Origin: Congeria kusceri
Taxonomy: Eukaryota; Mollusca; Bivalvia; Myida; Dreissenidae
Assembly (NCBI GenBank): GCA_027627225.1
Contig: CM051030.1
Location: forward strand, 28,267,927-28,331,926
DNA: 64,000 nt
Direction: 5' to 3'
A program made the translations under genes and the position numbers. The stretch's first letter is position 1. Every line of letters starts with the position of its first letter. The notes under the pieces are model-generated. The model saw nothing but the letters and a program-made list of their open reading frames with translations. It ran no database searches and was not told the origin of the DNA. This document shows, piece by piece, positions 5,075-63,995 of the stretch.

Positions 5075-5860
5075 TGTAACTGGTCTATTCTTTTTTGTGC
5101 AGTTTATGTCTGAACCATACTGTTCTAATTAAACAGCACGAATGTCACGGGATTTACGCTACTGTTTACACTATTCAACATGGTATTTTGTACTTTAACA
5201 TTAGTTGAAGACAATTGTATTGACTATTATGTACATGAAAACAGTTCTCCAACCACGATACATTGTTGTAGTTCTTAGTTTTATAGATATCTAACTATTG
5301 TGAAAATGCCTACATTTTGTGTTATCGGTTATTTTAGCATATTATCGTGACCTATCATAATCCTTGTATAAGTTTTATGTACTACATGTGGCTACGTGTA
5401 AATGGAAACCTCGTATTTGTTATTGCGATACATACTACCATCTTTTTGTGTATATTTAGTGTTATTATCGTGACCTATCATAATTGATGTATAAGTATCT
5501 ACTACATTACGTTATATTGTATCGTAATGTTATATGCTATATATAATCTTGGTGAAACACCTGCCTAAACCAAATACTCCTCTTGTACTGTTCATTAGTA
5601 AGATAGAATAAGTAAATTCCATTCTAGTATTCCTAGTATATTACATGTAGATGGAAACCTTTCGTTCTGATACAAAATATTGGGCTATTTGTCTATACGT
5701 TGTACTATTAGTTTCAGCTTAATATATTAAAAAATTGTATGCATCCTCTTTTCCTCCGGGATATTTACACTTGTCGCAAAATTTAGTTCTATGCGTAGGT
5801 ATTTCAAACGAATCATGTCAGCGTTCCAGTCTCATCTTGTCTACATCGGAACTCTTCATT
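5075..5860 (+). other. Long inter-ORF spacer of the outer LINE
   Basis: About 0.8 kb without a coding frame separates ORF1 from the first in-frame ATG of ORF2. It contains a direct repeat: TTATCGTGACCTATCATAAT is found exactly at 5342-5361 and 5465-5484, each followed by TGTATAAGT-like sequence, a 123-base period. How ORF2 is translated across such a spacer is not evident from the sequence. Confidence 0.5.
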
Positions 5861-8351
5861 ATGTCAAATACTAAACATATGTCTGGAAACGCTGTCATGA
5901 CAATATATAGGGCTCCACTTTTTTTCCCTTTACTCATGCATTTACTTTTTGCCTGTCAAGTATGGATGAATGGTTTCAGTCTAATATCATTATACATATG
6001 TATATATAGATCAATGAACGCATCGTATACAGTTGAACATTCAAGTAAATGTTTTCGGGTAGCAAATCGTAAATACGATGATATTATATTTCTGAAAAAG
6101 CTCCTTAACTGCCTTGCTGTTGCAACAACAGCATTTTGGCTTGTATACTTAATTTTACAATCAGGTGACATACATCCGAACCCTGGGCCAACATTATCTG
6201 AATTCACTGATACAGATAGTTCTGCTTCCAATTGCAGTAACTCAGCGACACAACACATATCCTTTGTGCATTACAATATTCAAAGCTTATTGCATAAAGT
6301 ATACATCCTTTTCACTGGTCTACGAGAATTTGACATAATTGCGTTTACCGAAACATGGCTGAATGACTCTATCCTATCAAGTGATCTCCTCTTAAATGGT
6401 TTTCACCAGCCAATCAGAAAAGATCGCCCCCTGGATTCACATGGTGGTGAAGCAATATACATTAATGAAAATATTGCTTTTAAACGTAGACTCGATCTTG
6501 AATTAAACCATATTGAATGTATATGGATCGAAATATTTCCTAACAAAAATAAATCGATTCTTTTTGGTGTATGTTATAGACCCCCTAGTGCTGATAGATT
6601 GTATATGGAAGCCATTGAAGACTCGATTGGGCTTGCAAATGACACTCGTATAGATGATATTGTTATTACAGGGGACTTTAATTTGAATCTTCTGTCTCCT
6701 TCTTCTGCACGAAAAATAGATGACATTTGCATACAATACAATCTCACACAACTTATAAATGAACCCTCACATTACTCAGAGCAAACATCATCAATAATTT
6801 ACCTAATATTTGTAAGTAACAAGAATAATGTATTGCTATCTGGAGTTGGCGAACCCTTGTTAGAACAAAATATTCGCTATCATTGTCCCGTTTTCGTAAT
6901 ACTAAAATTTATTAAACCAAAAACTAAAATATACTCTCGACACATTTGGAGCTATGACATTGGTGATTATAATATGTTACGACGCTTATTGTCAGATATT
7001 CAATGGGATCTATGCAAAAGTGAGGACATTGATACTTATGCTGAAAACATTACCAACACTGTATTGCAAACTGCAAAAACATGCATCCCAAACAAAACTG
7101 TATGTATACGCTCGTATGATTTACCGTGGATAAACAATAACATTAAGAAAAAAATTCGACAGCGAAAACGATTATATCGTAAAGCCAAAAAGTTAAATAC
7201 TGATACACACTGGTCAAATTTTCGACGTGTCCGAAATGAAGTAATTTTACTCTTACGCAATTCAAAAACCGTATATTTTGAAAACATTGCAAACAAACTG
7301 AAGTCTTCTGATCTCTGTGCCAAAGAATGGTGGAACATTCTACGGTCTTTTATTTCTCCAAACTCTCAAAATACAATTCCACCCCTCTTCGATGAACACT
7401 CGAACACTTTCGAGGTAAACGGCCCAAGCAAGGCTAATATTTTAAATAAGCACTTTGCTAGTCAATCTTTAATTAATGAAACATATCGTAATCTTCCATC
7501 TGTACACAATGCCAGTACTAATAATTTCCTTCAGACAATTTGTATATCACAGGAAGAGGTCATTGATTCGATTAAATGCCTTAAAGTAGGAAAAGCATCG
7601 GGTCCTGATGGAATTGATAACCGAATCCTCCGGGAAGCAATGTACCAACTTAGTTATCCCCTTTGTGAACTGTTTAATTCGTGTTTAACTGCTTGTAAAA
7701 TGCCGTCTTGTTGGAAAATTGCAAATGTTTGCCCGATCTTTAAAAAGGGCGATCCAGCTTTAGCATCAAATTACCGTCCGATATCTCTATTAAACACCTC
7801 CGAAAAAGTCTTTGAAAGAATCATACATAAACACATATTTAACTTCCTTCGGTCAAACTCTATTTTCACACCTCCACAATCAGGTTTTTTGCCTGGCGAC
7901 TCGACAGTTAACCAGTTAACGTATATATATAATACCTTTTGCAAAGCCTTAGATAATGGTTTGGAAGTAAGAGCAGTCTTCTTTGATATAAGCAAAGCCT
8001 TTGACAAAGTATGGCACAAAGGTCTACTATTTAAACTTCAACAAGCAGGCATACGAGGTAACTTATTGGCATTCATATCTAACTACCTCTCTAATCGAAA
8101 ACAGAACGTTATTCTACCAGGAGCACAGTCCGATACTATTTAAATTTTAGCTGGGGTCCCACAGGGCTCTATTTTAGGTCCTCTTCTTTTCCTCGTGTAT
8201 ATTAATGACATAGTCACCGATATACAAGCCCGAATTAACTTGTTTGCCGATGATACTAGTCTATACATGGTTGTTAACACTCCAACTGAAACTGCTGCTC
8301 TATTGCAATCTGACATAGATAAAATTTCCAGCTGGGCGGATAAATGGTTAG
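5861..8351 (+). pseudogene. Outer LINE ORF2, N-terminal part: endonuclease and reverse transcriptase
   Basis: The frame opens at 5735 with a TTG, but the first ATG is at 5861. A hydrophobic N-terminal leader ends in a 2A-like motif (6167-6190). The AP-type endonuclease follows (FVHYNIQSL, FTETWL, GVCYRPP, GDFNLNL). Two catalytic aspartates appear replaced by tyrosine: the usual IDL is IYL near 6800, and the usual SDH is RYH near 6880. The RT begins with ASGPDGIDN and NYRPISLLNT, continues through FFDISKAFDKV, meets a TAA at 8141-8143, and carries on in the same frame with [13 protein letters not shown] and FADDTSLY. At about 8351 it is cut by an antisense LINE and resumes in frame at 13179. 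It is a dead copy. Confidence 0.88.
6167..6190 (+). other. 2A-like ribosome-skipping motif, DIHPNPGP
   Basis: ORF2 codes SGDIHPNPGP just after a hydrophobic stretch (VATTAFWLVYLILQ). The canonical 2A consensus is D-V/I-E-x-N-P-G-P; here only the Glu differs (His). 2A-like peptides upstream of the AP endonuclease have been described in non-LTR retrotransposons of sea urchin, amphioxus and molluscs. If active, translation would release the leader peptide at the final Gly-Pro and start the EN-RT protein with proline. Whether the His variant works is unknown to me. Confidence 0.6.
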
Positions 8352-8604: not shown

Positions 8605-11600
8605 TTAGGCAAAAGTGTTATGGAATGCAGAACGTACACTCAAAGCTTCTTTTAAAAACATACAAAGATTTATAAGTTCAGTTCTATTATTAGTTTTCAA
8701 CAATTGGACATATTTAAAAACCGATGGGCGTGCACGGTATTTTAGTTTAACATATTTATTTCTTAGATCAGAAAAGCAGGGACAAATACAAATAAAGTGA
8801 TATTCGTCTTCGACGTCAAACTTGTTATTTTGTAAACAATATAAACAGTATCTTTCATTTCTAGGTGTATTATTTCTATTATATGTACCGGTCTGAATCC
8901 GTAAAGGATGAGCAGACATTCTCAATCTACACAGATAAAACCTTAGGCTTCTCGGGACAACATTTAAATATATTTCATATTCTATAGAAGTTTTGAATTG
9001 TCTATAAACATCCAGCATCGAACTATTCTCGAGTAAATTAAACCATTCCTGTTTAAATGCATCAATTACTCTATTTTTAAAGGTACTTATACATGTTTTA
9101 ACATCTATGGAATGTACATTATCAAATACAAAAGATAATCCGTAATCGTTTAACAATTTTCTCAACTGAAATACCCAGTTACGATTACCATAGTCACAAT
9201 CAGCTACAGCTTGAACATATACACGTTTTAAAATAATGTTATCCGTGGATACAATTTTAAGCCAATACTTGACAATACGAACATATCTGCTTATATACAG
9301 GGGGTATCTGCCCAGTTCACCGTAGACAGCGGCGGTGCAGGTATTAGAAGGAACATTTAACAATCGTTTACAAAATTTCAAATGAATTCTTTCAATTTCT
9401 TTACTTCTGGTGTGACCCCAAAGTTCAGACCCATAGCTTAAAATTGAACCTACAAACGAATCAAACAATTGACATAATAATTTTGGTTTTAAGTCATACA
9501 TTTTACATTTAGTAAGCAAAATATTCATTGCCTTAAGAGCCTTTCCAACCAGATGCTCTTCATTTAGGTTAAAACTACCGGTATATTTAAACACCAGTCC
9601 AAGGTAATTAAAATTATCTACTACTTCTACTGGTTGGCCATTGTAAGACCAACTTTCGGTGGGCAAAAGCCCACCTCGCTTTCGGAAAACCATAATTTTT
9701 GTTTTTTCTACATTAACTTGCAATCCCCATGTATTGCAGTACTCGTATAAATAATCTAAATGAGTTTGAATTTCGTTTGGAGATTTACCAACAATAGCCA
9801 TGTCATCAGCAAAGAGTAAAAGTAACAAAATTATATCATCAATTTGTAGACCTGAGTCAATATCATTTTGCAAATACAGTTCTAAGTCCTCAACAAAGAG
9901 AGAAAACAACAGAGGAGACATTACCTCCCCTTGTCGTAGTCCTACTGCATATACGAAGTAATCAGAATAGGAAGACAACGATTTTACACATGATTTTACT
10001 TTTCCGTACATATCGCGCACAATTCTTAGGATCTTGCCTTGAATTCCTGATTTGTACAATTTAAACCATAACCCATTTCTATATATAGAATCGAAGCATT
10101 TCATCATATCGACGAAAATGACGTATAAACGCTTGTTTTTATATGAGTAATGTTGTATTAAAGACAAAAGAATGAACGCAGCATCAATAGTAGATCGCCC
10201 TTTTTGAAATCCGAACTGCGCGTCCGAAATAAGATTATTTTCATTACAAACTTGTTCGACACGGTTATTCAATACAGTTGTAAATAGTTTAGATAGGCAG
10301 CTCACAAGCGTAATCCCCCGATAGTTATTAACGTCATTAACCGGACCCTTTTTGTGAATCGGAATAATTATACCTTCTGCCCATGCGTCTGGAAAATATC
10401 CAGAGTTAAGAACTGTGTTAAACAAGTCACATATATGCGAAGACAATATATCAACTGTTTCAATGAAATATTCATTTAACAGATAATCAGTACCGCTTGA
10501 TTTGTTACGCTTCAAAGATTTAATAGCTTTTACGATTTCATCAACGCTGATCGGCCTATCAAGTTCAGGGTAAACATCATTAGGCATGTTAAAATCGTTT
10601 TGCTCGTTAAAAGTTTCTGATTCCTCATTTCTGCAATTGAAAAGATTACTGCTAATATTTTCAAAATATTCGCGAAAGTCCCCTAAGGAAATATCTTCAG
10701 AATGTTTACGTGATCGGGATTTAAAATGTTTCCAAAAATCTTTAGGTTTAGATTTCTTCATCTGTTCAAGCTCAAGCATTTTACTTTTATAATGTAAACG
10801 TTTCTTTTTCCTAACTATATTTTTATACCTAGCTTTACATTCACATAAATTAATCCTGTTAGATTCAGTTCTCTGAGAATTAAATAATTTAAGAGCGTCA
10901 ACATAACAAGAACGCGCTGTTTTACATTCATTATCAAACCACACATTTTTAAATTGTGTACTATCTTTGAAACACATTTCATCTTTAAAATAGCACGTTT
11001 TACAAAACAGGGGATCTGCTACGCTTCGTATTGTATTAGTAAAATCATTTAGCATATTATTAACAGAATCTCTGTTTGAGCAATCAACGTTGTCCACAAT
11101 AGCATTAAACTTGATCAAATTACCTATAATTCCTGAGCGAAATTGCTCCCTAGAATGCACATTCCACTTATATTTCATTTCCGCATGACTAGTTTTATCA
11201 CGTCTATTTTTATTACAACACAATGCAAAGTTTACTGGGGCGTGATCGCTCCATTCATTAAAACTATCAATACAAAAACGAGATAGTTGTGAAAAATTAC
11301 AATCGGCAGTGAGCAGATAATCAATTACAGAACAGCCGTTATGCGACAAAAAAGTATACTGATTTGAGTTTCCTAGCCGGCCATTAACAATACGCATACC
11401 GGTTGCCTTACAAAAGTCTAGCAACTTAATACCATGATTATTGTGCCTTTGATCTAACGAGGCCCTGCTAGGAGTACAATCTGGACTATAATCGATTTCA
11501 TCGATGCAAATATTCACTCTATCATGCAAAATATAATCATTCTTTTCACCAACACGACTGTTAAAATCACCGCATATATAAATTGCGCCCTTATTATCAT

Positions 11601-12039
11601 AATCTGAAATATCGTTTTCTAAAATTTGAAATAAGTCAACACTTAAATAGTTATAGACTGGCGAATCCTCACCCCAAATGTAAACGCCACATATAAAAAT
11701 ATCTTGTTCCATGTTAAAAAATACATGATCTAGTCTTAACCAAATTATGGCGTCATAATGATTTTTTATAATTTCTATACCGCCCTCTAAATAATCCCTG
11801 TAACAAAGCAATAGACCGCCACTACTTCGTTTGGCATTTCTATTTTGGAAAGTCCTGTAAAAGTTATGGGTAATATAACCATTTAGTTCTACGTTAGAAT
11901 TTGATTTACACCACGATTCATACAAAAAACAAATGTCATAATTTGCCAATATCCCAACAAAATCAACACTTTCCTTCTTATCTTGCGACAGACCATTAAT
12001 GTTCCACGATAAAACAGACAGTTCATCTCCTGCGTACCC
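8605..12039 (-). CDS. Inner LINE ORF2: AP endonuclease-reverse transcriptase, opening directly after the ORF1 UAG
   Basis: The frame opens at the codon after the ORF1 stop (12042-12040) and runs about 1,144 codons without interruption. SWNINGLS, the first endonuclease motif, lies about 11 codons downstream. The next landmarks are LYESW, then GDFNSR, then YTFLSHNGCSVIDYLL, then WSDHAPV. All expected EN residues are present. The RT holds NYRGITLVSCLSKLF, FGFQKGRST, FVDMMKCFDSI, GLRQGEVMSPLLF and LLFADDMAIVG. The C-terminus has a knuckle, CLYCLQNN...EYHFICIC. No AUG precedes the endonuclease motif in frame; the first in-frame Met is about 110 codons in. Expression therefore needs UAG readthrough, a non-AUG start, or this copy has a CAG-to-TAG change in a one-ORF family. 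It nicks DNA and primes reverse transcription of its own RNA. Confidence 0.9.
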   Translation of the reverse strand, partial: GYAGDELSVLSWNINGLSQDKKESVDFVGILANYDICFLYESWCKSNSNVELNGYITHNFYRTFQNRNAKRSSGGLLLCYRDYLEGGIEIIKNHYDAIIWLRLDHVFFNMEQDIFICGVYIWGEDSPVYNYLSVDLFQILENDISDYDNKGAIYICGDFNSRVGEKNDYILHDRVNICIDEIDYSPDCTPSRASLDQRHNNHGIKLLDFCKATGMRIVNGRLGNSNQYTFLSHNGCSVIDYLLTADCNFSQLSRFCIDSFNEWSDHAPVNFALCCNKNRRDKTSHAEMKYKWNVHSREQFRSGIIGNLIKFNAIVDNVDCSNRDSVNNMLNDFTNTIRSVADPLFCKTCYFKDEMCFKDSTQFKNVWFDNECKTARSCYVDALKLFNSQRTESNRINLCECKARYKNIVRKKKRLHYKSKMLELEQMKKSKPKDFWKHFKSRSRKHSEDISLGDFREYFENISSNLFNCRNEESETFNEQNDFNMPNDVYPELDRPISVDEIVKAIKSLKRNKSSGTDYLLNEYFIETVDILSSHICDLFNTVLNSGYFPDAWAEGIIIPIHKKGPVNDVNNYRGITLVSCLSKLFTTVLNNRVEQVCNENNLISDAQFGFQKGRSTIDAAFILLSLIQHYSYKNKRLYVIFVDMMKCFDSIYRNGLWFKLYKSGIQGKILRIVRDMYGKVKSCVKSLSSYSDYFVYAVGLRQGEVMSPLLFSLFVEDLELYLQNDIDSGLQIDDIILLLLLFADDMAIVGKSPNEIQTHLDYLYEYCNTWGLQVNVEKTKIMVFRKRGGLLPTESWSYNGQPVEVVDNFNYLGLVFKYTGSFNLNEEHLVGKALKAMNILLTKCKMYDLKPKLLCQLFDSFVGSILSYGSELWGHTRSKEIERIHLKFCKRLLNVPSNTCTAAVYGELGRYPLYISRYVRIVKYWLKIVSTDNIILKRVYVQAVADCDYGNRNWVFQLRKLLNDYGLSFVFDNVHSIDVKTCISTFKNRVIDAFKQEWFNLLENSSMLDVYRQFKTSIEYEIYLNVVPRSLRFYLCRLRMSAHPLRIQTGTYNRNNTPRNERYCLYCLQNNKFDVEDEYHFICICPCFSDLRNKYVKLKYRARPSVFKYVQLLKTNNRTELINLCMFLKEALSVRSAFHNTFA

Positions 12040-19222: not shown

Positions 19223-22200
19223 TTACTGCGATTATCAGTATTCAGCCATTCAAATAGTAATCTATTTTTAGACAGGGAATTTCCATAACAATTGCATTGC
19301 AGTCAGTACTACAGTCTTTCAGGTAGCCTTTGAAAACTGCTAATATGGTATGAAAATGCTCAATAAAAAGAAGCATTTGAAGAGTAAAAAAATTATTATA
19401 GATTTATTTTACTATGAAATATAAATAACTCCTGTATGAGGAGCTATTAACATTAACAATTCACATCTGTTGTGTTTTATCTCTCTCAAGTATATGATAT
19501 AACTCTTAGAATTGCCTAAACTACATAATAAACTACATTCTATAACACATTAAATAAGAAACTGAGAATAAATTGCAAAACAACAGCAAGCTATACATTA
19601 TTATAGTTCACTAATTTGATGTTTTGTTCAATCACTATTCAGGACACAGGGGGTGTAAAGAAAAAGATGATACATTGCGTACATTGTTTTATCTTGCATA
19701 TGCGAATCAAAAGTCAATTGATGAAAATGTTGTTAATTGGGTTTTATAATTGTATGACTTACCATATGAAAACTTCTAGCGTTTACAATAATGGTTGACA
19801 TAAAAATTGTTTCTTACAACTGTCGTGGCCTTAACGATTGTAAAAAACGAAGAGATGTACTCAGTTATTTAAAAAAACAAAATGCACATATTTATTGTCT
19901 ACAGGATTGTCATTTTACCCCATCTATGGAAAAGCACATTTATTTGCAGTGGGATGGTGACTGTTACTTTAGTCATGGTAATTCCAACTCTAGAGGAGTG
20001 TGTATTTTGTTAAAAAAACATATATCTGTAACGGTCCATACCACTGAGAAGGATCAGCATGGCAATTATTTACTGTTAGATTTAACATTCGATTCAAAAC
20101 GATTTACTGTCTGTAACCTGTATGGGCCTAATAATGATACACCAATGTTTTACAAAGATCTATTTTTGAAAATAGACTCTTTAGGTAATGAAAGATATAT
20201 AATATGTGGAGACTACAATCTTGTACTCGACCCCAAAATAGACTATGTTAATTATAGAAACCTAGATAATAACAAAAACTCAAGGAATCTGTTATCTTCT
20301 TTCATTAAAGATAGGGGCTTAATAGATACTTTTAGACTAATGAATGGTAATTTAAACCAATACACTTGGAGAAAACCTAACTCTCTACAGCAAGGTAGGC
20401 TGGACTTCTTCCTTGTCTCTAACAATCTTTTACAACACTTAAGAGAATCTGACATTAAAGCAAGCTACAAATCTGATCATTCAGTTATAACCTTAGAATT
20501 GAATCTTTGCGAAGTAATCCATGGTAAGGGACTTTGGAAGTTCAACAACTCTTTATTATTTGATGAAGAATATCTTAAGTGCATAAAACTAAAAATAGAA
20601 GAAGTTAAACAACAGTATTGCTTACCTGTTTACAATACTGAATTATTGAATACCATTGATAATAATATGATTCAATTCACTATTAATGACCAATTATTCT
20701 TGGAAACGTTATTAATGGAAATTAGAGGCAAAACAATCTCTTACTCCTCTTACAAATCCAAACAAATGAAAGACAGAGAATATATTCTTATAAAAAAAAT
20801 TGAATTACTAGAAAAAGATGTTAAGGAAACAAACATTGTAGAATTAAACTCATTAAAAGAAGAACTTTCAAAAATGCGTGACAACAAAATGAAGGGATCA
20901 TTTATAAGATCAAAATGCAAAATGGATCGATGAAGGTGAAAAACCCACAAAATACTTTTGCAATTTAGAAAACCAACATTCAGCCAGTAAAACCATACCT
21001 TATATTATAAACGATGATGGTCAGAATGTATACGATCAAAAAAATATTTTAACGGAAGCCGCAAAATATTATAAAACTTTATATGCTAAGACTACTTCAA
21101 ATGAAAAAAAAAACAATATTGATATTTTTTATGACCTTGACGGAATGCAAACAGTTAAACTAAGCTATGACCAATCTCAAGCATTAGAAGGATTGTTGAC
21201 AATGGAAGAAATTTCAGCTACCTTGAAAAACATGAAGCACGATAAGAGCCCAGGCTCGGACGGTTATACAACTGAATTTTTCAAAGTATTCTGGAATGAT
21301 CTGAAGTGTTTTATTTTAAGAAGTCTGAATCATGTTTTTATTTCTGGATCTTTGTCAATCACTCAAAAACAAGGAATCATAACCTGTATTCCAAAAGATA
21401 GTAAACCAAGGCACTTTTTTAAGAACCTTAGACCTTTAACACTTTTAAACGTTGTATATAAGATAGCATCAGGTACAATTGCAAACAGATTGAAAACAGT
21501 CCTTGACACGCTCATTTCAAAAGATCAAACCGGTTTTATAAAAGGTCGATATATTGGTGAAAATACAAGACTTATATATGATATCATGAAATATACGGAG
21601 GATAATAAAATACCAGGACTTCTAATGACTCTAGACTTCGAAAAGGCCTTCGATACACTAGCATTTAACTTCATTGAGAAAACTCTAGAATATTTTAATT
21701 TTGGTATTATGTTCAGAAAATGGATTTCTCTTTTTCTTTACAACACCATGGCAGCTGTACAGATCAATGGGTATCTATCAGAATTCATTAAAATAGAAAG
21801 AGGTTGCCGTCAAGGTGACCCAATAAGTTCTTATATTTTTATTCTATGTGCGGAAATTTTAGCAATTAACATAAGGAATTCAAAACAAATTAAAGGAATT
21901 AAAATTGAAAATATAGAATACAAAATTTCCCAATTTGCGGATGACACATCTTTATTACTAGACGGTTCAGAAAATTCACTAAATGCTACAATTGATTTAT
22001 TACAATTTTTTGCACTAGAATCCGGACTTAAAATTAATTACGATAAAACAAATTTGATATGGATAGGTTCTAAGAAATACAGTGCACAATCAATAAAAAC
22101 TAAGTACAAACTAGTGTGGGGCACAACCAGTTTTAAAGTGCTAGGCATTTTATTTGATATTAATCTAGAAAAAATGGTTGACCTCAATTTTTCAAACAAG

Positions 22201-23975
22201 ATAATCAAAGTACAAAATATGATACAATTTTGGAGTAAAAGAAACCTAACACCATTAAGAAAAATAACTGTGGTAAAATCCTTGTTACTTCCCCTGTTTA
22301 CACATCTGTTTATAGCCCTCCCCAGTCCTGGGACAAATATATTAAAGCAAATACATAACAGCTTTTGTAGCTTCATCTGGAATGGCCCACTAAAAATTAA
22401 ACACACTATTCTCATTAAACCATATGAGGAAGGAGGACTTAACATGATAGATATTTACTCATTTGAAAAAAGCATGAAATTGACATGGATAAAGAAAATT
22501 GTAACATGTACAGGTAAATGTTTTCAGCTAGTTTATTCCATGTTTGATGTTAAAAAAATGATTAATATGGGGACAGCTTATGTTGAGAAAATTGTGAATA
22601 AAATAGGAAACCACTTTTGGAAAGATGTTCTTAGATATTATATTATGTACATTGATAAACTAAACATTTGTAAATTTGATGATGTATTGAATATGCCATT
22701 GTTCTATAATACCAATTTTGAAATTGGTTTGAACTGCATTTATGAAAATAATATGTATGAAAGAGGAATACGATTTGTTAGAGACATAATGTGTATCTCT
22801 GGAAGTTTCATATCAAAGCAAGACATTGAGGTTTATACTGGTAAAGCCCTCAATTTTTTATTTTATGAAGAGCTTAAAAGATCTGTATCACAGTTCATTA
22901 GAAACTCTAGATTTGATACAACATATGTACCAAATAGTAACAACGTTTTTATTTCATTCTATTTAAGTGAACTCGTTTTCATGCAAAAACATAAAGCAGT
23001 ATATGACAAATTTATCTCAAATAATGACAGACCTTCCAGTCAATGCAAATGGAACGAAATGTATAACAATATAGATTGGAAATATGCATACAGTTTTGAT
23101 TTTAAATTATCCAGAGATACATATTTACAATGGTTACAAACTAGAATTGTACATAGAATTTTAGGAACGAAATCTCTGTTACAAAAAATGAAAATTGTAA
23201 CTGATAATTTATGTTGCTTTTGTAACAAATATGAAGAAACTTTAACTCATCTCTTTTGGGACTGTGAACATGTCCAATCTTTAATTAATAATATTAAAAA
23301 TGAATTGAATACAAACCAGTTTGACTTACCTACACTGACTTGTCAAGACATGCTATTTGGAATGTGCAACAAAAAAATGGACCATATTAATATTTTATTT
23401 TTGGAAGTGAAGAGATATATTTTTATGTGTCAAAAATCTTGCAAAATTCCTACTATTTCAGGGTTAAAGAAAAGTCTAAAACTAGCTTGGGAAATTCAAA
23501 AACATACACTGTGCAAAAACCCAGAACTTCGATTATCTAACTGGTCAGTTGTAAGACTTTTAATGCAATAAAACCCAATATACAAGCATGTACATCCACA
23601 TTATCATGATCCTTTTGTACATTCAAATAACCATACTGACATTACACTGTGTCCTATTCACTTTCTTCCATGTTTTGTATCAAAAATTTCTGTTTAAAAG
23701 TAAAATACATGATTACTTACCCCCAAAAAGGTGTGCAATATTATATAGAAGATATACATGTTTACATCTAAAAATTTATATAGCATGTATGTTCAATTTA
23801 GTATTCGGTAAAATGTTTTTGATATATAAAATTGTATGTATAGTATGCATGTATGGATGTTTACAACTTTATTTATATGCAGCTTTACAATATATGTACA
23901 TTACAATTTTTAACTACTCTATATATAGCATGAATGTGTGTATAATATACTATGAAGAAAATAAAATTGTGCACA

Positions 23976-29200: not shown

Positions 29201-29740
29201 ATTTGTATATATTTCAATAATTTTACTTGGTAACTTGATGATAGGCATTTGTAAAAACTTGATAAAGTTGATAAATTATACCTAAATAGTTTAATACTGC
29301 AATATTACAGTTAAAAGTGACAAAAAGAGTGAAATAGTTTTGAACTGTTTTGACGAGTCAAACAAAAAGTGGAAGACAATTGACATAGTATTTTATTCTG
29401 CTTACGTTCAATGCAAACTTGAAATAAAACCGAAAATTCAATACAGCGATAATAATTCTAGATCTGCATCCTAGAACAAAGTATTCGATCTATGTTGAAA
29501 CATATTTATTTATAATCTTAAGTTTTAATACATGTATAAATAGCCAATGTAATAATTCACTGTCAATTATATAAATATGTTGGCAGTTTTCTGCAACATG
29601 GTATTACAAATTACTTTAAAAACAACTTATCTACTCGGTTGCAGCCACTCTCATCCACTCACAAAATGGACAAGATGCAATTTGAATACGTCACAACAGT
29701 GAATACGTCATGAAATTATGTCGATTTGAATCTCATCAGC
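26240..29740. other. Non-coding AT-rich stretch
   Basis: I see no gene or RNA. It includes a short GTT microsatellite at 28858-28878. Open frames are short and unremarkable. Confidence 0.5.
28858..28878. repeat. (GTT)7 microsatellite
   Basis: Seven uninterrupted GTT units; the local open frames on both strands (poly-Val and poly-Thr) are artefacts of it. Confidence 0.85.
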
Positions 29741-29756
29741 CCAGCCAGCATAAATA

Positions 29757-30535
29757 TATGGGACCCATATGGGTCCAATATGAGCTACCATATGGGGTCT
29801 GTATGGGCTAACGATATGGGGCCAAATGGGATTTTGCAAACTGTATTTGTATGGGTCCCAGATGGGTTGCAATATGGGACCTATGTGGGTTCCATGTGGA
29901 TCCGAGATGGGTCCTATATGGGATACCCATATAGGTCCAATATGGGCTTCGATATGGGTCCTGTATTGGCAATCCATATGGGGCCAAATGGGATTTTGCA
30001 AACTGTATTTGTATGGGTCCCAGATGGGTTGCGATTTGGGACACACATAGGTCCAATATGGGTTTCGATATGGGTCCTGTATGGGCAACCCATATGGGGC
30101 CAAGTGGGATTTTGCAAACTGTTTTTGCATGGGTCCCAGATGGGTTGCGATATGGGACCTGTGTGGGTCCCATTTGGACCCAAGGTGGGTCCTATATCGG
30201 CTACCCATGTGGGTCCAATAATTGGCTTCGATATGGGTCCTTTATAGGCATCCCATATGGGGCCATGTGGGATTTTGCAAACTGTTTCTGCATGGGTCCC
30301 AAATGGGTTGCATTATGGGATACATGTGGGTTCTATATGGATCCAAGATGGGCCCCATTATAGGCTACCCATATGGGACCCATGCAAAAGGTGTTTGCAA
30401 AATCCACTTGGCCCCATATGAGCTGCCCAATTAGGACCCATCCAGGTTTCGATATGGGTCCTCTTTGGGCATCCTATATGGGACCCAGTTGGGTTTTGCT
30501 AACACTGTTTGCATGGGTCCCATGTAGGTTTCGTT
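29757..30535. repeat. Higher-order satellite array 1, built on CCCATATGGG
   Basis: Variants of GGGTCCCATATGGG recur about every 23 bases. A marker word, GGGATTTTGCAAACTG, starts at 29828, 29990, 30106 and 30269 (spacings 162, 116 and 163), showing a higher-order unit near 162 bases. An inverted copy of the marker lies near 30390 and a diverged one at 30490. The core contains the palindrome CATATG. The array stays open in several frames on both strands, which follows from repeat composition, not from a gene. A related array lies 4 kb downstream. Confidence 0.85.
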
Positions 30536-32969: not shown

Positions 32970-34160
32970 AAAATTTAAGTCGATGTAATACAACATTTTA
33001 GACTATGATTGCAATCATTTCACTCACAATTACAATTACAATTGCATGTTTTCTAGTTTAAAACTACTGGATTTAAATATCAAGTGTCAATAACACTGGT
33101 AATTATGATGTGCATTGTTTCTCTTATTTAGTGTGTTAAGGGCTAATGAACTTCATTGCTAACTGACTGTCTCTTGTAATGAGCACGAACATACTGGACT
33201 CCATACAAGTTCGGCAATTACTGCCTTGTTAATAGTTAATTGAACTGATCACTGTTTGTTTATCAGAAGCATGGGGTGTTTCACGTTCATTTATTTACAT
33301 CTGCAGCATTTTTGGATCGCACACACCAACAAGTAGCTTTGTTCAGTATCCTCAGTGTACGCTTGCCTTGCATTATTGGTTCCTCGACCTTAACACATGT
33401 TCTGAAATTTCAAATTAAAAATATGTGTGTTGAAATGAAATAAACATGAAGAAATACATAGAATTCAAGACAGTGCGAAACCTGTCAGACAATCATATGT
33501 GACAGACAAAAAATGAGGGTGTCTGACAAAATTTATCACAAACCTTATACATATTATTATTTAAGGTTAGTTATACCTTTGCTTTTTATATAAAGGAATT
33601 ATTACTGCAACAATCAGTGTATGCATTATGTTATGCCAATATTTAGTGTGTGAGATTGCTTAAGCTAATTTATAGAATTAAACTTCTGAACTCAAATGCA
33701 TGTAACTTATTGTTCCAATTAGTGAAATTATTCCAACATTCAATTAATTGCCATATAGTGTACGTTTTAATAAATAATGCAACTTCAACAAAAGCAACTA
33801 TATTGTTTTCCTACTGATAACCCATGCTTTATTTGCACAAAGATAACACGTACAAAACAACACACAAATTTGTGTTTTGATAGTGAAGTAACATTTTTGA
33901 AATAGTCGAGAAATACACGACAATACAGATATATTTACTATAATTCTGATTGAAATTGCAATTATGATTATTAAGTTATGACAAACATTTTTCCAAGTGC
34001 AAAACACATATTTACTTACTTGATATTTAAGAAATGCAAGCTGCATTGTGGTCCTCGAAAGAAAATCTGTATATGACAAAACAAGATGGCGGCCGTGAAT
34101 AACTGCTTTAAACTGGTCACAGAAGCACACATCAGACTGACCGATATGGACATGTTTTCT
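32970..34160. other. AT-rich stretch without recognised genes
   Basis: Nothing recognised apart from short open frames without domain content. Confidence 0.45.
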
Positions 34161-34162
34161 GG

Positions 34163-36130
34163 GTCCCATATATACTTGCTAGTTAGGAACCCATATGGTC
34201 TCTCTTGCTGGGAGGCATATGGGCTTGCGATTGGTGACCCATCTAGGCCTGCTTTTTGGGGGCCCATATGGGCTTTCTTGCTGGTACCCATATGGGTTTG
34301 CTTTTGGGTGACGCATATATAGGCTTTCATGCTGGGACCCATATTGGCTTGTTTGCGTGGGTCCTACCTGGGACTGATCAGCGCATAACAATGTATGTGG
34401 GACCCTCACGCAACCCATGTGGTTAATAAACCCCGTTATAGCCCATATTGGGTCACCATTGGCTGGATTGCCGGGACCGAAACGAGCTTACTTGCTGGGG
34501 ACCCAAATGGGCTATGTTGATGGGACCCGTATTGGGTTGAATGTTGGTATCCCATATGTGTTTGCTTGTTGGGAACCCATATGGGGATGCTCTTTGTGAC
34601 CCATATGGGCTAGTTTGTTGGAGACCCATAAGGGCCATTTTGCTGGGACACTTATGGGATTGCTTTTTTGGTACCCATGTCGGCTCTCATTCTGGGATCC
34701 ATGCGGTCATGCTGTTGTTGACCCATATAGGCTTACTTGTTGAGGACCAATATGGGCTGTCTTGCTGGGAACCATATGGACTTACGTGTTGGGGACCTAT
34801 ATGGGCTTTTTTTTGTTGGAACCCATATGGAGCTTACTTGGTTGGCGCCCATTTGGGCTTTCTTGCAGGGACCCATATGGGCTTGCTTGCCTGGGATCCA
34901 ACTGGGTCTGATATGGGAAATACAACGCATATGGGTCCAACATGGGGCACATGTGGTGTATCAGCCCAGGTATAGCCCATATCGGTCCACATGGGATGGC
35001 TTACTGGGACCCATATGGGCATACTGTCTTGGAACCCATGTGGATTGACTTGCTTGGTCAAATATGGGCCCGGTATGGGCAGAACAATATTTCATGGGGC
35101 CCATATGGTATATTTGCCCATGTAAAGCCGATATTGTGCCCATATGGGCTTGCTTGCTGGGTTCGTGATAGGACCAATATGGGCTTACTAGTTGGGAACC
35201 CATATGGTCTTTCTTGCTGGGACATATATGGACTTGTTTGCCTGCGACCCAAGTGGGTTTAATATGGGCAAGACGATGTATATTGGTCTCACATGTGGAA
35301 GATCAGCCCGGATATAGCCCTTATCAGGCCCACATCTGATAGCTTTACGGACCCATATGGGCATACTTGGAACCCATGTGCGCTTGCCTGCTTGGTCCAA
35401 TATGGGCCCGATATAGACAGAAAAACATATATGGATCCCACATGGGGCCATATGATATATGTGCTCAGGTATTTCCCATATTGAGCCTATTTAGGCCTAC
35501 TTGCTGGGACCCATATGGGGGTGCTTGTTGGAAACACACATGGGCTTTCTCGACGGGGACCCATATGGGCTTGCCCTTTGTGAGCAATATGGGTCTGTTT
35601 ATTTGGATCCCATAGAGGCCATCTCGCTGGGACCCATATGGGCTTTCTTGTTGAGAACCATTATGGGCTCTCTTTCTGGGACTCATGTGGGCTTGGTATC
35701 GGAGGCCCATATGGCTTATTTGGGACCCATTTGGGCTCTGTTGCCGGGACCCATTTGGGCTTGTTTGTTTGTGGACCTATATAGGCTTACTTGTTGGGAA
35801 CCCATATGGGTTTTTTTGTTGGGTACCTTTATGGGCTTGCTTGTCTGGGACCCAAGTGGGTCTAACATGGGCAAGGTGATGTATATTGGTCCCATATGGG
35901 GCCCATGTCGAAGAGTAGCCCAGGTATAGCCATTATCAGACCCACATGTTATGACTTACCGGGACCCATATGGGCATACTTGCAAGAGAACCATGTGGGC
36001 TTGCCTGCTTAGTCCGATATGGGCCCGATATAGGCTGAACAAATAATATATGGGTCCCACATGGGGCCCATATGTTATATTTGCCCACCTGTAGCCCATA
36101 TTGAGCCTATATGGGCTTGCTTGCTGGGAG
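34163..36130. repeat. Higher-order satellite array 2, built on ACCCATATGGGCTTGCTTGCTGG
   Basis: About 2 kb of 27-33-base units with consensus GGGACCCATATGGGCTTGC. A longer composite block beginning near ACCCAAGTGGGTCTAA and ending CATATTGAGCCTATATGGGC recurs at about 34900, 35250 and 35850, giving higher-order organisation. The core is shared with array 1 (CCCATATGGG, GGGTCC), but the flanking words differ (CTTGCTTGCTGG versus GATTTTGCAAACTG), so the two are diverged branches of one family. Long open frames on both strands, rich in Gly-Pro-Ile-Trp, are composition artefacts. Confidence 0.85.
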
Positions 36131-40099: not shown

Positions 40100-41100
40100 A
40101 TTGTTTGCTCTTCATTTTCCCCACATATTCACCGATATATGTGACAAGGTTTATTCACCAAAACAAACTTATTTATCATACAGTTTATGCTCTAACCCTT
40201 TTAAAGTTTGGTCTTCATCTGCACTTTGTGTCCACTTAGTTAGCCTTTATCCATTAATGAACATACCATTCCGAAATAATATTGTTTTTGACCCTCGAAA
40301 ACATACGGTTTAAAATATTATAACGTGATTCTTGCAGATTCTTCTATAAAAAAAAGCCTACAAATATCGTTGTTAAACTTCCAAATAAGCAACGCAAAAA
40401 GTAGTCCCGATTCAGAGCGCAGCATAATACAATGTAGTTCTCATTATAATTGCATAAATATTTGTCAGATTATGATATAATCTAAATAATTTTAGCATTA
40501 TCGTTGTCTATCGCCTATTAACAACTTTGTGTCGTTCTTATGCGTGGCTGTTCCCGCTTATTTTTCAAATAAACGTTTAAATGGGCTTCTAGATATATTA
40601 ATTTATTATTCTCAAACAGTTTACTGTGATACTGTGTCAGTAAAGATGCCGACTATTAAATAAAAACTTGAACTTGTTATCAATAATGTATTTCCCAAAG
40701 ATATTTTATATAATAAAACATGATTTTATTTAAACTCACTTTATACAGAGTGTTGCTGGACATAACGTTATACAATAATTACGTATACTAACTCAGATTG
40801 TATAGAACGGCACAATATTAACCTACTTGCCATTAGCCGACGACATATAAAACCTAGTTTGGTTGTACCCTTCCTAGTTTGGATTTCCAACGCACAGGGT
40901 GTAAAAGTTTTAGGTTCGGACGCACTAAATGTGGAGTCATGCATCTCTCCACATGTCAACTTGTATAAAACTTCCGTATCGAAAATTTTAAAGTAGGAAG
41001 TCATTTCGCGATGTTTAGTTTAATAAATACGGCGTGTGTCGTTTTATTATGGATTACGTACCGAACAGGTATCGTTTATTTGTTTAGCAGTTCGTGCCAC
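40100..41100. other. AT-rich stretch between the two CGCGAA islands
   Basis: No gene recognised. Confidence 0.4.
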
Positions 41101-49955: not shown

Positions 49956-49958
49956 CAA

Positions 49959-49994
49959 TTAACCAGTAGACAGCGCTGAGATAGCTCCGCCCAC
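49959..49994 (+). repeat. Left TTAA and terminal inverted repeat
   Basis: TTAA, then CCAGTAGAC, a 12-base insertion relative to the right end (AGCGCTGAGATA), then GCTCCGCCCAC. The CCGCCC box could also act as a GC-box promoter for the gene starting at 50039. Confidence 0.6.
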
Positions 49995-50038
49995 TGATCA
50001 CATGACCAAACCCTTGGACAACTTAAGATAATTAAACA

Positions 50039-52008
50039 ATGGCCGACACGCTATCGTTGAGTGTTATTCCCAGCGCGTTTGGCGAACATGTTTTGCAATA
50101 TAAGCCGTCATTGCGACATAGAATTGAAGGGGGAAAGTTTGCGAATGAGTCGTACGTTGCCTTTGGGAACTTTTTAAAAGGTTTTGATACGGACATCTTG
50201 GTTAAAGCCGGTGTTTATCGAAGCCAAAAGCGTAATGACGAGGCGCATAAAAATAAAATAAACTTGTCGGTGGAGGGAGTTTTGATTTCGTATGCACTTT
50301 GCAGTTGCACGGCAGGGTATGTCAAGTTTACGTGTTCTTTGTTTGTAATTAAGTTGTATATAACGAATATTTAAAGAATTAATTATAATAAGCTATTGTC
50401 GAAAGTCCGTATTGTTCGAAATAATTATGTAAACATTGCATCACTGTGCTAATTAAATTTCCTAAACTACATTTGATATACCTTCTATAGTACTATATTA
50501 TAATAATTAATGTATAGTACACCACTACACAGTATAGACAGTATAAATGCTTGCTCTAGCGTTGGTAGTGTTTTATTGCATTTAAGAACTAGTTTTCGAT
50601 TTATCGTTGAAAATCTGTCAATAAACAAATATTTGGAGTTCTGATGCGTTGGAATTAAATCACAAGGGCGTTAAATTTTTTCAATTCTAACATGATCTGT
50701 CAAATAATTTGGCATTTGTAATGAGAAATACATTTAACTATGCTGCGCTAAGAATCTGGAGTATTTTTTTCGTCATTTATTGCGTATTTTAACAACGAAA
50801 ATTTTGTTCTTTGTCTTTAGAAGCGAGTTTAATGAGAACCATTAAGAACTGATCTTGAAGCCTCACCGACTTGAACACTGAAATTCGTTTTGATATTTCA
50901 AATGGGATATGTGATTCATTGGCACTAGAAAAATAAATATTTTCATGAATTGTGTGTACACGAGTCCAGTGTAATACTTAAAGTTCTTGTTAATAGATGA
51001 ATCTCTCACAGATTCAACTGTCATTGGTTGACTTTGTTGCTGGCTTTTGCATTGTTTCTCTGAACTTTAAATGTTCACGTCTTAGTTCTTCATTACACAG
51101 TATCTGTGCTGCTAGTTGCCTCTTCAAAGAGTCATTTCAGCTGTGATTGCCAAAAGCTGCAATGGTGTCAAACCAGAATCTGGAAAAAAAAGTATTTTTG
51201 TACAGTTATTGTTTATGGTGTTACATATTTTGTATCATTAATCTATTTCAGTTGCCTCTGGTTGAACAAGCTGACAACCCTGTTGGTCAGTCTTTTCCTT
51301 GTGGACAGCTGGCTTTTCCAGTGGTTACAGACACTGATTGGAGCAAGGCTGATGATTAAGACTGGTCAAAAGTTGAGTTGACTATGTCGGAGGCTGTCCA
51401 GTTGGAAAAAAACACAAGACAACAGAACTGCTGTGAGTTGTGGATGGACCAGCGGAAGCACAGAATTACTGCGTCCAATGTGGGCGCTATATGAACAGGC
51501 GCGTGTCTTTCACACAGACATTTGTGGATTCTTTTCAAAACAGAAGCCATTTAAATCAATCGGCCGCCACGTCATATGGCTCTGCAAATGAAAATGTTGC
51601 CCGACTGTTGTATCAGAAGAAAACTAGTAACCATGTGCATGACTGCGGGTTTGTTGCCATTCCGGCATTCCCATTCATTTGAGCAACATCGGATGGGAAA
51701 GTGTGCGACTCCAATACAATGGAAACGGGTATCCTACAAATAAAGTGCACGTTTTCCATAAGGGACATGAGTATTATGGATGGTGAACACAATTTAGAAA
51801 TGGATGAGAACACAATCAAATAAAAAAAAAATCATGCATACTTCTTTCAAGTGGAGGAGCCCAGTTTTGTGATTTTGTAACTTTTACAAAGTGTGAAATT
51901 CTTGTTGAGCAAACATCTGTACAGTCTGATATAGTAAAAAAGCTAGAATATTGTATACAACTTTTCAGTTGTAAAAGTATACCTGAGGTAGAGCTGTCTT
52001 GTGGTTGA
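50039..52008 (+). pseudogene. SWIM zinc-finger/YqaJ-type nuclease gene, degraded
   Basis: Exon 1 (50039-50316, ATG, donor GTATGT) encodes MADTLSLSVIPSAFGEHV...SYALCSCTAG, where CxC begins a SWIM finger; the CxH half would lie in the next exon and was not found. After acceptor ATTTCAG (51251) come LPLVEQADNPVGQ, a stop, LEKNTRQQNC...RITASNVGAI, a frameshift, ATSYGSANENVARLLYQKK, VAIPAFPFI, a stop where Gly is expected, ATSDGKVC, and ILQIKC, where the family's catalytic ExK has Gln for Glu. Then KKNHAYFFQV, a frameshift, CDFVTFTKCEILVEQ, and a stop at 52006. YqaJ proteins are lambda-exonuclease-type nucleases (PD-(D/E)xK fold). With at least four lesions this copy is dead. Confidence 0.75.
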
Positions 52009-52009
52009 A

Positions 52010-52814
52010 CTTGACTGCAAACGTCTTAATTAATCTGGGGGTCCGTTGCAACATTGTCTTTATTGCTGAAAGTATGATTGTTATGTTATACAAATAATGG
52101 ACGGTTGTTGCTTTAGCATGCCAATGTTATTGTTATGATTGTTTGATATGTTGTCAGGAAGCATTTAATGGTTCTTCTAATTTTACTTATTTATTTAGTA
52201 AATCAAATATGTTATGTGATACAAAGTGACAAACGTGTTAAGACATGATTATGTTATGGATAAGCCTTTCTTTCCAAGTGTATTGTTTTCTTTTGCTGAT
52301 GGGTCGAGAGGTGTATTAATAAACTGCATGATAATTTATGTATGAGTGTTGTTATTCCTTGTTTCATGATGTAGAAATCACTAGACTACATAAAAGTGCA
52401 GGCTGTTATTTCAGTTAATCACGGTAGCCACATAAAACAGTATTTGAAATAACCCACTTGCCTAAAAAGCCTGGGACCAGTAAAATTCTATACCGGCAAG
52501 TTAAAATTTTGACCTGCCTGCCAGAAAGAGCATGTACAAGAAGGATGAAATTTTTTGAAATTAAGACTCAATAATACGACAATGTTCATAATTCTTTTCT
52601 CAAAATATATCATTACCTGATTTTCTTTCTATATGACTGACTACATGAAGACATCACTATCATTTATTTATAAGGTTTTTATAATCTCTGGGTTTTATTT
52701 CCACATTTTGGACAAGTTCAGTTGAAATTGTATGGCTTATGCCCAAATGGACAAGCCCTTTCAAAATAATTATTGTGAAGATTGCTAAAGTGCATTTAAG
52801 GTTAAAGAACATAC
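52010..52814. other. Interior of the TTAA element between the two genes
   Basis: No coding sequence was recognised. A transposase remnant could be hidden here in a state too degraded to read by eye. Confidence 0.4.
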
Positions 52815-53584
52815 TTGTACCAGGACTTTTTTCGAAATTGCGGATACTGAGCGGTACTTAGGTGGTGGCCGTCTTGGTATAATTTCCTGTCTTGAATATG
52901 GGGTGATGGCAAGTATTGGGTATGGATAAGCTTCACCTGGCCTTCCATCATGGAAGTGCCAAAATAACATAATATTGATATGCATAAACTTGAAACTTAT
53001 GCTGTTTCTCTAACAGCAAAATGTAAAAATAAGTAAATATTTACGTGTACAATTAAATATGCTAATGTTATTTCAAGAATACAACAGTAAACACAATATA
53101 GACTCTTACTTGTCATCAGAATTTTCAGAAACATAAACAAAATTGTATCTGAATCACTGAGAAGTCGTTGTTTACACTGTGCGATATAAGGAGTTTTGCA
53201 ACTCAAGTTGGCAATATAGTAAAGTTGCATTGGTCAATAAATCGAGTTACAATGACATAAGCTGCTCGTAACCATAGATGGAAATAAAACATTCAAGCGT
53301 TTGTATTGATCAAGAGCATAAGCCTTGTAAGTTTTATAATCGGATAATCATTCATGCAATATTAAAAACGTTAAAACCTTACTGCAGACGTAAAGGCAGT
53401 AGTTTCCTCCTACGATCGCTACATTTAGCTTGTGTTTGGGCCGACCGCAAGCTTTAATCCATTGCTTGCATCTTTCAAGCTGAAATTTAGGCTTCGGGAA
53501 CGGATGGAACACCACACCACCTTCCAGACGTTCCTTTTACCTACTATCGCTGTTATACAGCCCCCACTGGCATCGTTTAACCAT
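52815..53584 (-). pseudogene. THAP zinc-finger gene, two exons, broken
   Basis: Exon 1 (53584-53378, 69 codons from ATG) encodes MVKRCQWGLYNSDSR, a TAA, then GGVVFHPFPKPK, RCKQWIKACGRP and YVCSK. Exon 2 (52958-52815) continues HFHDGRPGEAYPYPILA to a donor GTATGT (52814-52809). This is the C2CH THAP DNA-binding domain (C...C...C-x2-H with the FPKP block). Three lesions are visible: Tyr replaces the second zinc Cys (GLCNSD is usual), a stop follows DSR, and the exon 2 acceptor reads GG instead of AG. THAP domains bind DNA and occur in P-element and Kolobok transposases and in host proteins. Its start lies just inside the right inverted repeat. Confidence 0.8.
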
Positions 53585-53744
53585 TTTTCGTGAGTTTAAA
53601 CAGTTGATATTTTCACTAAGCTAGAGAATAACCCATATCTACTTTCGGTTAGTCTTTCCAAGAAAAACGCTCGGATGTAAAACTTTACTAGGTGCGCGTC
53701 AACGGACGATTTTCATTGGTTAACCGGTTATCGGTTCTAGAATT

Positions 53745-53769
53745 GTGGGCGGAGCCGTCTACTGGTTAA
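53745..53769 (-). repeat. Right TTAA and terminal inverted repeat
   Basis: GTGGGCGGAGC, one base, GTCTACTGG, then TTAA: the mirror of the left end without the 12-base insertion. Confidence 0.6.
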
Positions 53770-53779
53770 TTACGGGGCT

Positions 53780-62574: not shown

Positions 62575-63109
62575 ATTTGCTTGTTAGAAAATGTGATTTT
62601 AAAATAATTACAATACAAGTTGCTTTCTTGACAACGGGCTCGGCTGTTGCCAACAGGCATCTACTTTATCCGTCTTGTTCATGTACTTGCCCATTCGGAT
62701 AATCAGGTCAATATTTTAACTCGCCTGAATAGTAAATAACTGTTTGTACTTTTTTCCTTTCTAACACAATTTAGTATTGAAAGCTATACCTTGGGAGCTT
62801 TCACCCATCTACTATGGACTTCATTAGCCAACTGATCTCCTTTACATTAACAGGGGATTAGGACTAACACCTCTTGAGGGCGTGAGTGATGTTAATGCTG
62901 AATAGTTTTTTAATTGTCCCGGGCTTTGGGAAAGCAGGTTATTTCAAAGACTGTGAAACATTGTATAGTGGTCATCTACAAAGATTGTTCAAATTATGCC
63001 CCTGGGATGTACAAATCATGTCCCTGGGATAAAATACTGTATACATGAGTGACAGGGGCCACTCCGCACACTTGTTCAAACTATCACATATCACTTTATT
63101 GTTTTGTAG
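62575..63109. other. Probable intron upstream of the Ig exon
   Basis: No coding content. It ends in TTTATTGTTTTGTAG, the acceptor for the exon at 63110. Confidence 0.5.
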
Positions 63110-63739
63110 ATGTGTGCTCAGCATTGGCAGTTCTGAATGGGGGCAATACAACAATTCTATGTAGTTCGAGAAACAGCGTTTATCCAAGTTGGCAAGGACC
63201 CTCTATAAATGGGACTATTTTTATATATTCCTTTCAAGGAGTACCAGGATTTAACCCAGTACTTGGTGTTGACAAACTTAGCCGCCTTTATTGGTCCAGC
63301 AACAACATTGATCTACTACTGTATAATGTGAAGAGATTGGATGAAGGAACATACACATGCACACATGCTGGACCAAAATCTGGTGAAACATCGTCTGTCA
63401 ATCTTACAGTTCTTATACAGCCATCAACACCTGTCATCTCCAACACAGAGCCCGGTGGTATCGTCCAAGGCACAGAGGGGACACCTCTAACATTGTCATG
63501 TACCTCAGTGGGAGGATACCCAGTGCAGACTGTAAACTGGTACAGGGGAAGTACATCTAACCCGGCGTTGTCATCTGGAGCTGAATCTGTGGTAGAAAGC
63601 AATGAATTGTACAACGTGATACGTACTGTGACATTTACGCCGACCAGGGCAGATGATGGAATTTCGTACATATGCCAGTCATTGTATCTAGGTGACCTAC
63701 CACTTCTGCAGTACAGCAGTGTACGCCTTGTGCTTAATC
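63110..63739 (+). CDS. Ig-superfamily exon encoding two Ig domains (partial gene)
   Basis: A 630-base exon lies between TTTTGTAG and GTAAGT (63740). It is symmetric phase 1-1 and open for 210 codons. Domain 1 holds NTTILCSS, a Trp (YPSWQG) and DEGTYTCTH. Domain 2 holds PLTLSCTS, VNWYRG and DDGISYICQS, ending LQYSSVRLVLN. Both have the Cys-Trp-(D-x-G-x-Y-x-C) signature of extracellular Ig folds, as in adhesion or recognition receptors such as hemicentin-like or nectin/CD22-like proteins; I cannot say which. The rest of the gene lies outside the window. No lesion is present, unlike the related locus at 24-26 kb. The last 39 bases of the exon are the first unit of a 60-base tandem array. Confidence 0.85.
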
Positions 63740-63995
63740 GTAAGTAATTACTGCAAACACCACTTTTGCAGTACAGCAGTGTACGCCTTGTTCTTAATGG
63801 AAAGTAATTACTGCAAACACCACTTTTTCAGTCTAGTAGTGTACGCCTTTTGCTTAATGGTAAGTAATTACTGCAAACACCACTTTTGCAGTACAGCAGT
63901 GTACGCCTTGTGCTTAATGGTAAGTAATTACTGCAAACACCACTTTTCAGTATAGCAGTGTACGCCTTGTGCTTAATCGTCAGTAATTACTAATA
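63701..63995 (+). repeat. 60-base tandem array spanning the exon 3' end and splice donor
   Basis: Five units, with GTACGCCTT starting at 63721, 63781, 63841, 63901 and 63960. Each unit carries CACTTTTGCAGTACAGCAG (acceptor-like), the last coding bases of the Ig domain and the donor. Donor words in order are CGTAAGT, GGAAAGT, GGTAAGT, GGTAAGT and CGTCAGT. In the Ig frame every unit has TAA right after its donor. Confidence 0.9.

Follow-up and report, generated by a model that had tools for sequence, protein, structure and literature searches.

A stretch of 64,000 nucleotides from the bivalve Congeria kusceri (the window; assembly GCA_027627225.1, contig CM051030.1, positions 28,267,927 to 28,331,926 of the forward strand) contains, at 49959-53769, two decayed genes enclosed by a pair of inverted repeats. 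One gene, on the plus strand, is predicted to encode a nuclease of the lambda-exonuclease/YqaJ family; the other, on the minus strand, a THAP zinc finger. The genes are convergent, and each starts just inside one of the inverted ends. We consider it likely that this unit is what remains of a single cut-and-paste DNA transposon, a two-gene element with terminal inverted repeats that is now decayed and internally deleted.

Terminal inverted repeats

The unit is bounded by an 18-nucleotide inverted pair, 49957-49974 and 53754-53771, with 17 matches and the outer 15 positions identical, as the original prediction had it when it described 15-base inverted matches that include TTAA at both ends. Within this pair lies the terminal repeat TTAACCAGTAGAC, which is exact at 49959-49971 on the plus strand and at 53757-53769 on the minus strand; these are its only two exact occurrences in the 64-kb window. 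When up to three mismatches are allowed, 17 matches are found in the window against a chance mean of 20.1, a number that is not above chance. The second inverted block of 11 bases that had been noticed, GCTCCGCCCAC, is likewise exact at both ends and has no further exact occurrence in the window: the left copy is at 49984-49994 (plus strand), 12 bases inside the left terminal block, and the right copy is at 53745-53755 (minus strand), 1 base inside the right one. In an alignment with one gap, in which the left end carries 11 additional bases, both blocks merge into a single terminal repeat of the form CCAGTAGACRGC-TCCGCCCAC.

Chance expectation for such ends was obtained from 300 dinucleotide shuffles of the window, with pairs spaced 200-8000 bp apart. 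An exact inverted pair of TTAA plus nine bases is unremarkable when taken alone: the real window has two, the shuffles have a mean of 0.58, and at least one pair occurs in 128 of the 300 shuffles and at least two in 38. When both ends must also share a second exact 11-mer further in, the real window yields one such pair and the 300 shuffles yield none, and for that reason the two-block ends are regarded as beyond chance. The window also holds a second TTAA-flanked exact 9-mer inverted pair, at 33073-34030 (ATATCAAGT), which is within chance expectation.

Near-matches to the GC-rich subterminal block GCTCCGCCCAC occur in the window about four times as often as in shuffles. At two mismatches or fewer there are nine in the window, both exact copies counted, whereas 100 shuffles average 2.3 and have a maximum of 6; none of them reaches nine. 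On the opposite strand the block (49984-49994 and 53745-53755) contains GGGCGG, in both cases upstream of the neighboring start codon. We take this motif to be an Sp1-like GC box, by which the block could double as a promoter.

The unequal spacing between the blocks (12 bases against 1) recalls piggyBac elements, for which a TTAA target and asymmetric inner inverted repeats are described in the part of PMC2874221 consulted. A piggyBac-like element would have had to capture both the nuclease and the THAP gene. No piggyBac transposase match was obtained in a Pfam scan of the unit in six frames, and an origin of this kind is very improbable.

The nuclease gene

The first exon of the plus-strand gene (MADTLS...CSCTAG) occupies 50039-50316, with bounds read by hand, and has no in-frame stop. 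Its ATG, at 50039, lies 80 bases inward of the left terminal block's outer edge, and the exon ends in CSCTAG, followed by a GTATGT donor at 50317. Exon 1 has no Pfam match. The last recognizable exon, at 51252-51942 and likewise bounded by hand, carries the YqaJ (lambda-exonuclease) domain. As a single open frame, the nuclease scores 15.4 bits against PF09588, below the curated cut-off of 22 bits; with stops read as X, scores of 33.8 bits (E=5.1e-8, one frame) and 32.5 bits are obtained, and a reading across a frameshift near 51490 reaches 49.7 bits (E=6e-13). The same reading across the frameshift matches the viral alkaline exonuclease family PF01771 (E=1.2e-6), and the nuclease matches two phage exonuclease families, the RecE-like phrog_434 at 2.4e-9 and a second family at 4.6e-7. 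From these domain matches the gene is assigned to the lambda-exonuclease/YqaJ family.

The gene is probably split by introns, and its exon phases point to at least one exon that is absent or unrecognizable. In the presumed intron lies a dispersed repeat (50673-50823, plus strand) that is 75% identical to 40341-40492 on the opposite strand. The YqaJ exon has the frameshift near 51490, five stops between 51494 and 51942, and one further stop upstream.

Catalysis in YqaJ/lambda-exonuclease enzymes depends on a D...E-x-K motif. A sequence search of the PDB with the joined nuclease returned 3syy alone, in a weak alignment (E=1.2); we take this structure to be LHK exonuclease. In that weak alignment (E=1.2), GILQIKC of the nuclease stands against GLIEIKC of the solved relative, and with respect to the catalytic motif the D and the K are kept and the position of the E reads Q. 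Judged by its reading frame and motif, the nuclease copy is dead.

The gene had been described as a SWIM-YqaJ nuclease, and of this double name the YqaJ half holds (PF09588). A SWIM finger has the motif CxC...CxH. The CxC at the end of exon 1 fits the first half, and the N-terminal part of the protein is probably zinc-binding; no CxH half was recognized in the gene, and no Pfam SWIM match was found in six frames or in the joined readings. SWIM is thus rejected as a demonstrated domain, the CxC half-motif being all that was seen of it.

The THAP gene

On the minus strand, THAP exon 1 (MVKRCQWGLYNSDSR*KERLEGG...YVCSK, the asterisk marking its one stop) spans 53378-53584, and its ATG at 53584 lies 185 bases inward of the right terminal block's outer edge. 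Exon 2 (HFHDGRPGEAYPYPILAITPYSRQEIIPRRPPPKYRSVSAI) spans 52836-52958, with bounds read by hand and a degenerate acceptor. Against the curated cut-off of 23.9 bits for PF05485, single frames score 23.4 (E=1.1e-4), 21.5 and 18.0 bits, all below it; with exon 1 and exon 2 joined over the intron, the score is 37.9 bits (E=3.1e-9). The original prediction of two degraded convergent genes just inside the ends is borne out by this joined match together with that of PF09588 to the nuclease.

The zinc ligands of the THAP finger are C2CH. The first C is present, and so is the CxxH pair, which is completed across the intron as CSK|H with the H supplied by exon 2; the expected second C reads Y. This substitution for a zinc cysteine and the one stop mark the THAP copy as decayed. 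PDB sequence searches gave no match for the joined THAP reading, nor for the plain frames.

Between the nuclease and THAP genes lies a gap of about 800-900 bases, which includes a second dispersed repeat (52437-52542, plus strand). It is 74-78% identical to 62678-62742 and 62902-62954 on the minus strand; that copy, near 62.8 kb, is interrupted by about 160 bases.

A probable decayed transposon with two genes

The unit is read as one decayed two-gene transposon because three things visible in the DNA itself coincide: ends that both genes share, inward-facing genes that start beside those ends, and the joint decay of the two. The nuclease gene in turn appears to belong to a mobile element, because it and the THAP gene lie within one inverted-repeat unit and start at its ends. 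The cut-and-paste mode is something that we infer. By analogy with known families, the THAP gene would be part of a transposase, and the nuclease may have had a role in movement.

Several observations weigh against this interpretation. The THAP gene clears its cut-off solely after two exons have been joined by hand. A Pfam scan of the unit in six frames at E<=10, in which the HMMER filters discard most matches above about 0.1, found no DDE domain, so that a transposase is not demonstrated; neither a PIF/IS5-type nor a Kolobok-type DDE core was seen, and for the latter Pfam perhaps lacks a model. It follows that the unit either no longer has its transposase core or was non-autonomous from the outset; a copy that is deleted or non-autonomous can do without a DDE transposase. 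The rows for PgaPase_1, Endopep_inhib and DUF4187 that the Pfam search returned were dismissed as below cut-off. One copy is known, and a second is absent from the window. Finally, four protein scans of viral_contigs (two open frames and two joined readings) yielded no relative, a result that says little for a viral collection.

The searches with the ends were made in viral_contigs and genome_contigs. The end pattern TTAACCAGTAGACRGC has one match in viral_contigs, and this is treated as chance, GCTCCGCCCAC being absent from the 13,965 bases of the matching sequence. The one-gap end pattern and the left subterminal stretch have no match in viral_contigs. In genome_contigs the one-gap pattern has one match, in a metagenome-assembled genome of the Hydrogenophilales; this too is treated as chance, since it is a single site in DNA of 64% GC with no TTAA in front. 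Viral and prokaryote collections are the wrong place for a eukaryotic transposon, and near-empty scans of them weigh little. Rfam gave no match in the window at gathering score.

The decay of both genes, the other repeats inside the unit, the single known copy and the presence of three reverse-transcriptase elements in the window would also suit a different account, namely that there is no single mobile unit and that pieces derived from two separate elements, or pseudogenes of the host, have come by chance to lie between inverted repeats. Such an assembly would have to place both start codons next to the ends, orient the genes convergently and supply two-block ends that are beyond chance; we hold it to be improbable. 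A YqaJ gene inside a THAP-bearing mobile unit is, then, what the locus probably contains.

The life of an intact copy may be pictured as follows. It would have had terminal inverted repeats of about 21 bases and two convergent genes, one starting beside each end. The THAP gene would most likely have been the 5' part of a transposase gene, and its zinc finger would have bound the terminal repeats. Transposase would have excised the element, which would then have inserted into a short AT-rich target. The nuclease could have served as an accessory, for example by trimming DNA ends, or resecting them, while the donor site or the new insertion was being repaired. In the copy at hand, the catalytic part of the transposase would have been lost through internal deletion or decay.

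Target-site duplication and superfamily

The original prediction took TTAA as the target-site duplication. The mirrored boundaries permit four parsings into duplication and repeat, AT+TAACCAG, AATT+AACCAG, TA+ACCAG and TTAA+CCAG, and all four fit equally well. With one copy only, there is no choice among them; TTAA therefore stands as one valid parsing and is rejected as a demonstrated duplication.

No superfamily is assigned, and the preference expressed here is for the ISL2EU branch of PIF/Harbinger, at about an even chance. Members of ISL2EU are taken to have a THAP transposase, a YqaJ-domain second protein, a 2-bp AT duplication and a repeat that starts TAACCAG. Two genes, THAP and YqaJ, are what the unit contains, and its boundaries permit an AT duplication with the repeat TAACCAGTAGAC. 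On the other side, there is no DDE match whatsoever in six frames, and the presumed link to YqaJ found no confirmation: the term YqaJ does not occur in those parts of the main text of PMC5718144, PMC4455052, PMC5753468, PMC2874221 and PMC3706591 that were available. ISL2EU is grouped with PIF/Harbinger and prokaryotic IS5 in the portion of PMC5718144 consulted, and it is named in superfamily lists in excerpts of PMC4455052 and PMC5753468.

Kolobok was the superfamily originally proposed, with SWIM-YqaJ genes carried by a Kolobok-like element. Of that proposal, the nuclease gene within a THAP-bearing mobile unit is retained and the assignment to Kolobok is not, there being no DDE core and four possible parsings. 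An element with a TTAA duplication, CCAGTAGAC ends and a SWIM-YqaJ nuclease as helper or cargo would agree with one valid parsing and with the presence of a THAP gene. THAP is not specific to Kolobok, as P and ISL2EU-type transposases also carry it, and T2-type Kolobok ends begin with an A/G-rich, AAGGG-like sequence, unlike CCAGTAG here. Three other parsings fit as well as TTAA, and no Kolobok core was seen, with the proviso that Pfam may lack a model for it. In the sections of PMC3706591 consulted, a DxxH or CxxH motif in the transposase puts Kolobok together with hAT, P and MuDR, and the duplication is called diagnostic in both its size and its sequence; neither that motif nor the duplication is readable in this copy. 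Kolobok also appears by name as a superfamily in an excerpt of PMC4455052. As the second choice after ISL2EU, Kolobok is unlikely. More doubtful still is the broader proposal that a TTAA-targeting, Kolobok-like lineage uses a lambda-exonuclease-type nuclease as a second component of transposition, which would explain the numerous SWIM-YqaJ genes of invertebrates.

Should intact relatives confirm that the nuclease travels between such ends, many host-annotated "uncharacterised SWIM/YqaJ proteins" would be transposon genes, and what need a cut-and-paste transposon has of a phage-type exonuclease would become a testable question. If ISL2EU elements with YqaJ are already on record, the pairing is known, this copy is a broken member and its value lies mainly in annotation. 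The novelty is probably low.

Other features of the window

Three non-LTR (non-long terminal repeat) retrotransposons with endonuclease and reverse transcriptase domains are present, at 5723-8140 (plus strand), 8608-12039 (minus strand), and 19770-20930 with 20908-23568 (plus strand). Two of the three have frames that stay open for 1144 and 887 amino acids, and look fairly young. An open frame at 63049-63744 (plus strand) has matches to immunoglobulin domains, among them PF00047 at 6.8e-13. In the regions 29711-30360 and 33801-35926 several frames are open on both strands, with repetitive translations (MGP, WDPYGS); these are probably tandem repeats rather than genes.

Comparison with known systems

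The unit shares traits with several known systems and departs from each of them. Its nuclease resembles lambda exonuclease, YqaJ and RecE in its matches to PF09588 (6e-13) and to the RecE-like phrog_434 (2.4e-9), but here the gene is probably split by introns, and the catalytic E reads Q in the weak alignment to 3syy (E=1.2). ISL2EU is taken to be a terminal-inverted-repeat transposon with a THAP transposase, a YqaJ protein and an AT duplication, and the AT parsing is one of the four that fit here; a YqaJ-domain protein, which would be a mark of the family, is present in the unit, and no DDE core was found here to be compared. The likeness to Kolobok lies in the THAP gene and the possible TTAA duplication, both named as Kolobok traits in the original prediction, whereas the unit has no Kolobok core, admits parsings other than TTAA and has ends unlike those of the T2 type. 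Academ differs from the unit in the fold of its nuclease and in having no known THAP, yet it too is a cut-and-paste transposon that carries an exonuclease of its own, in that case of the XPG type.

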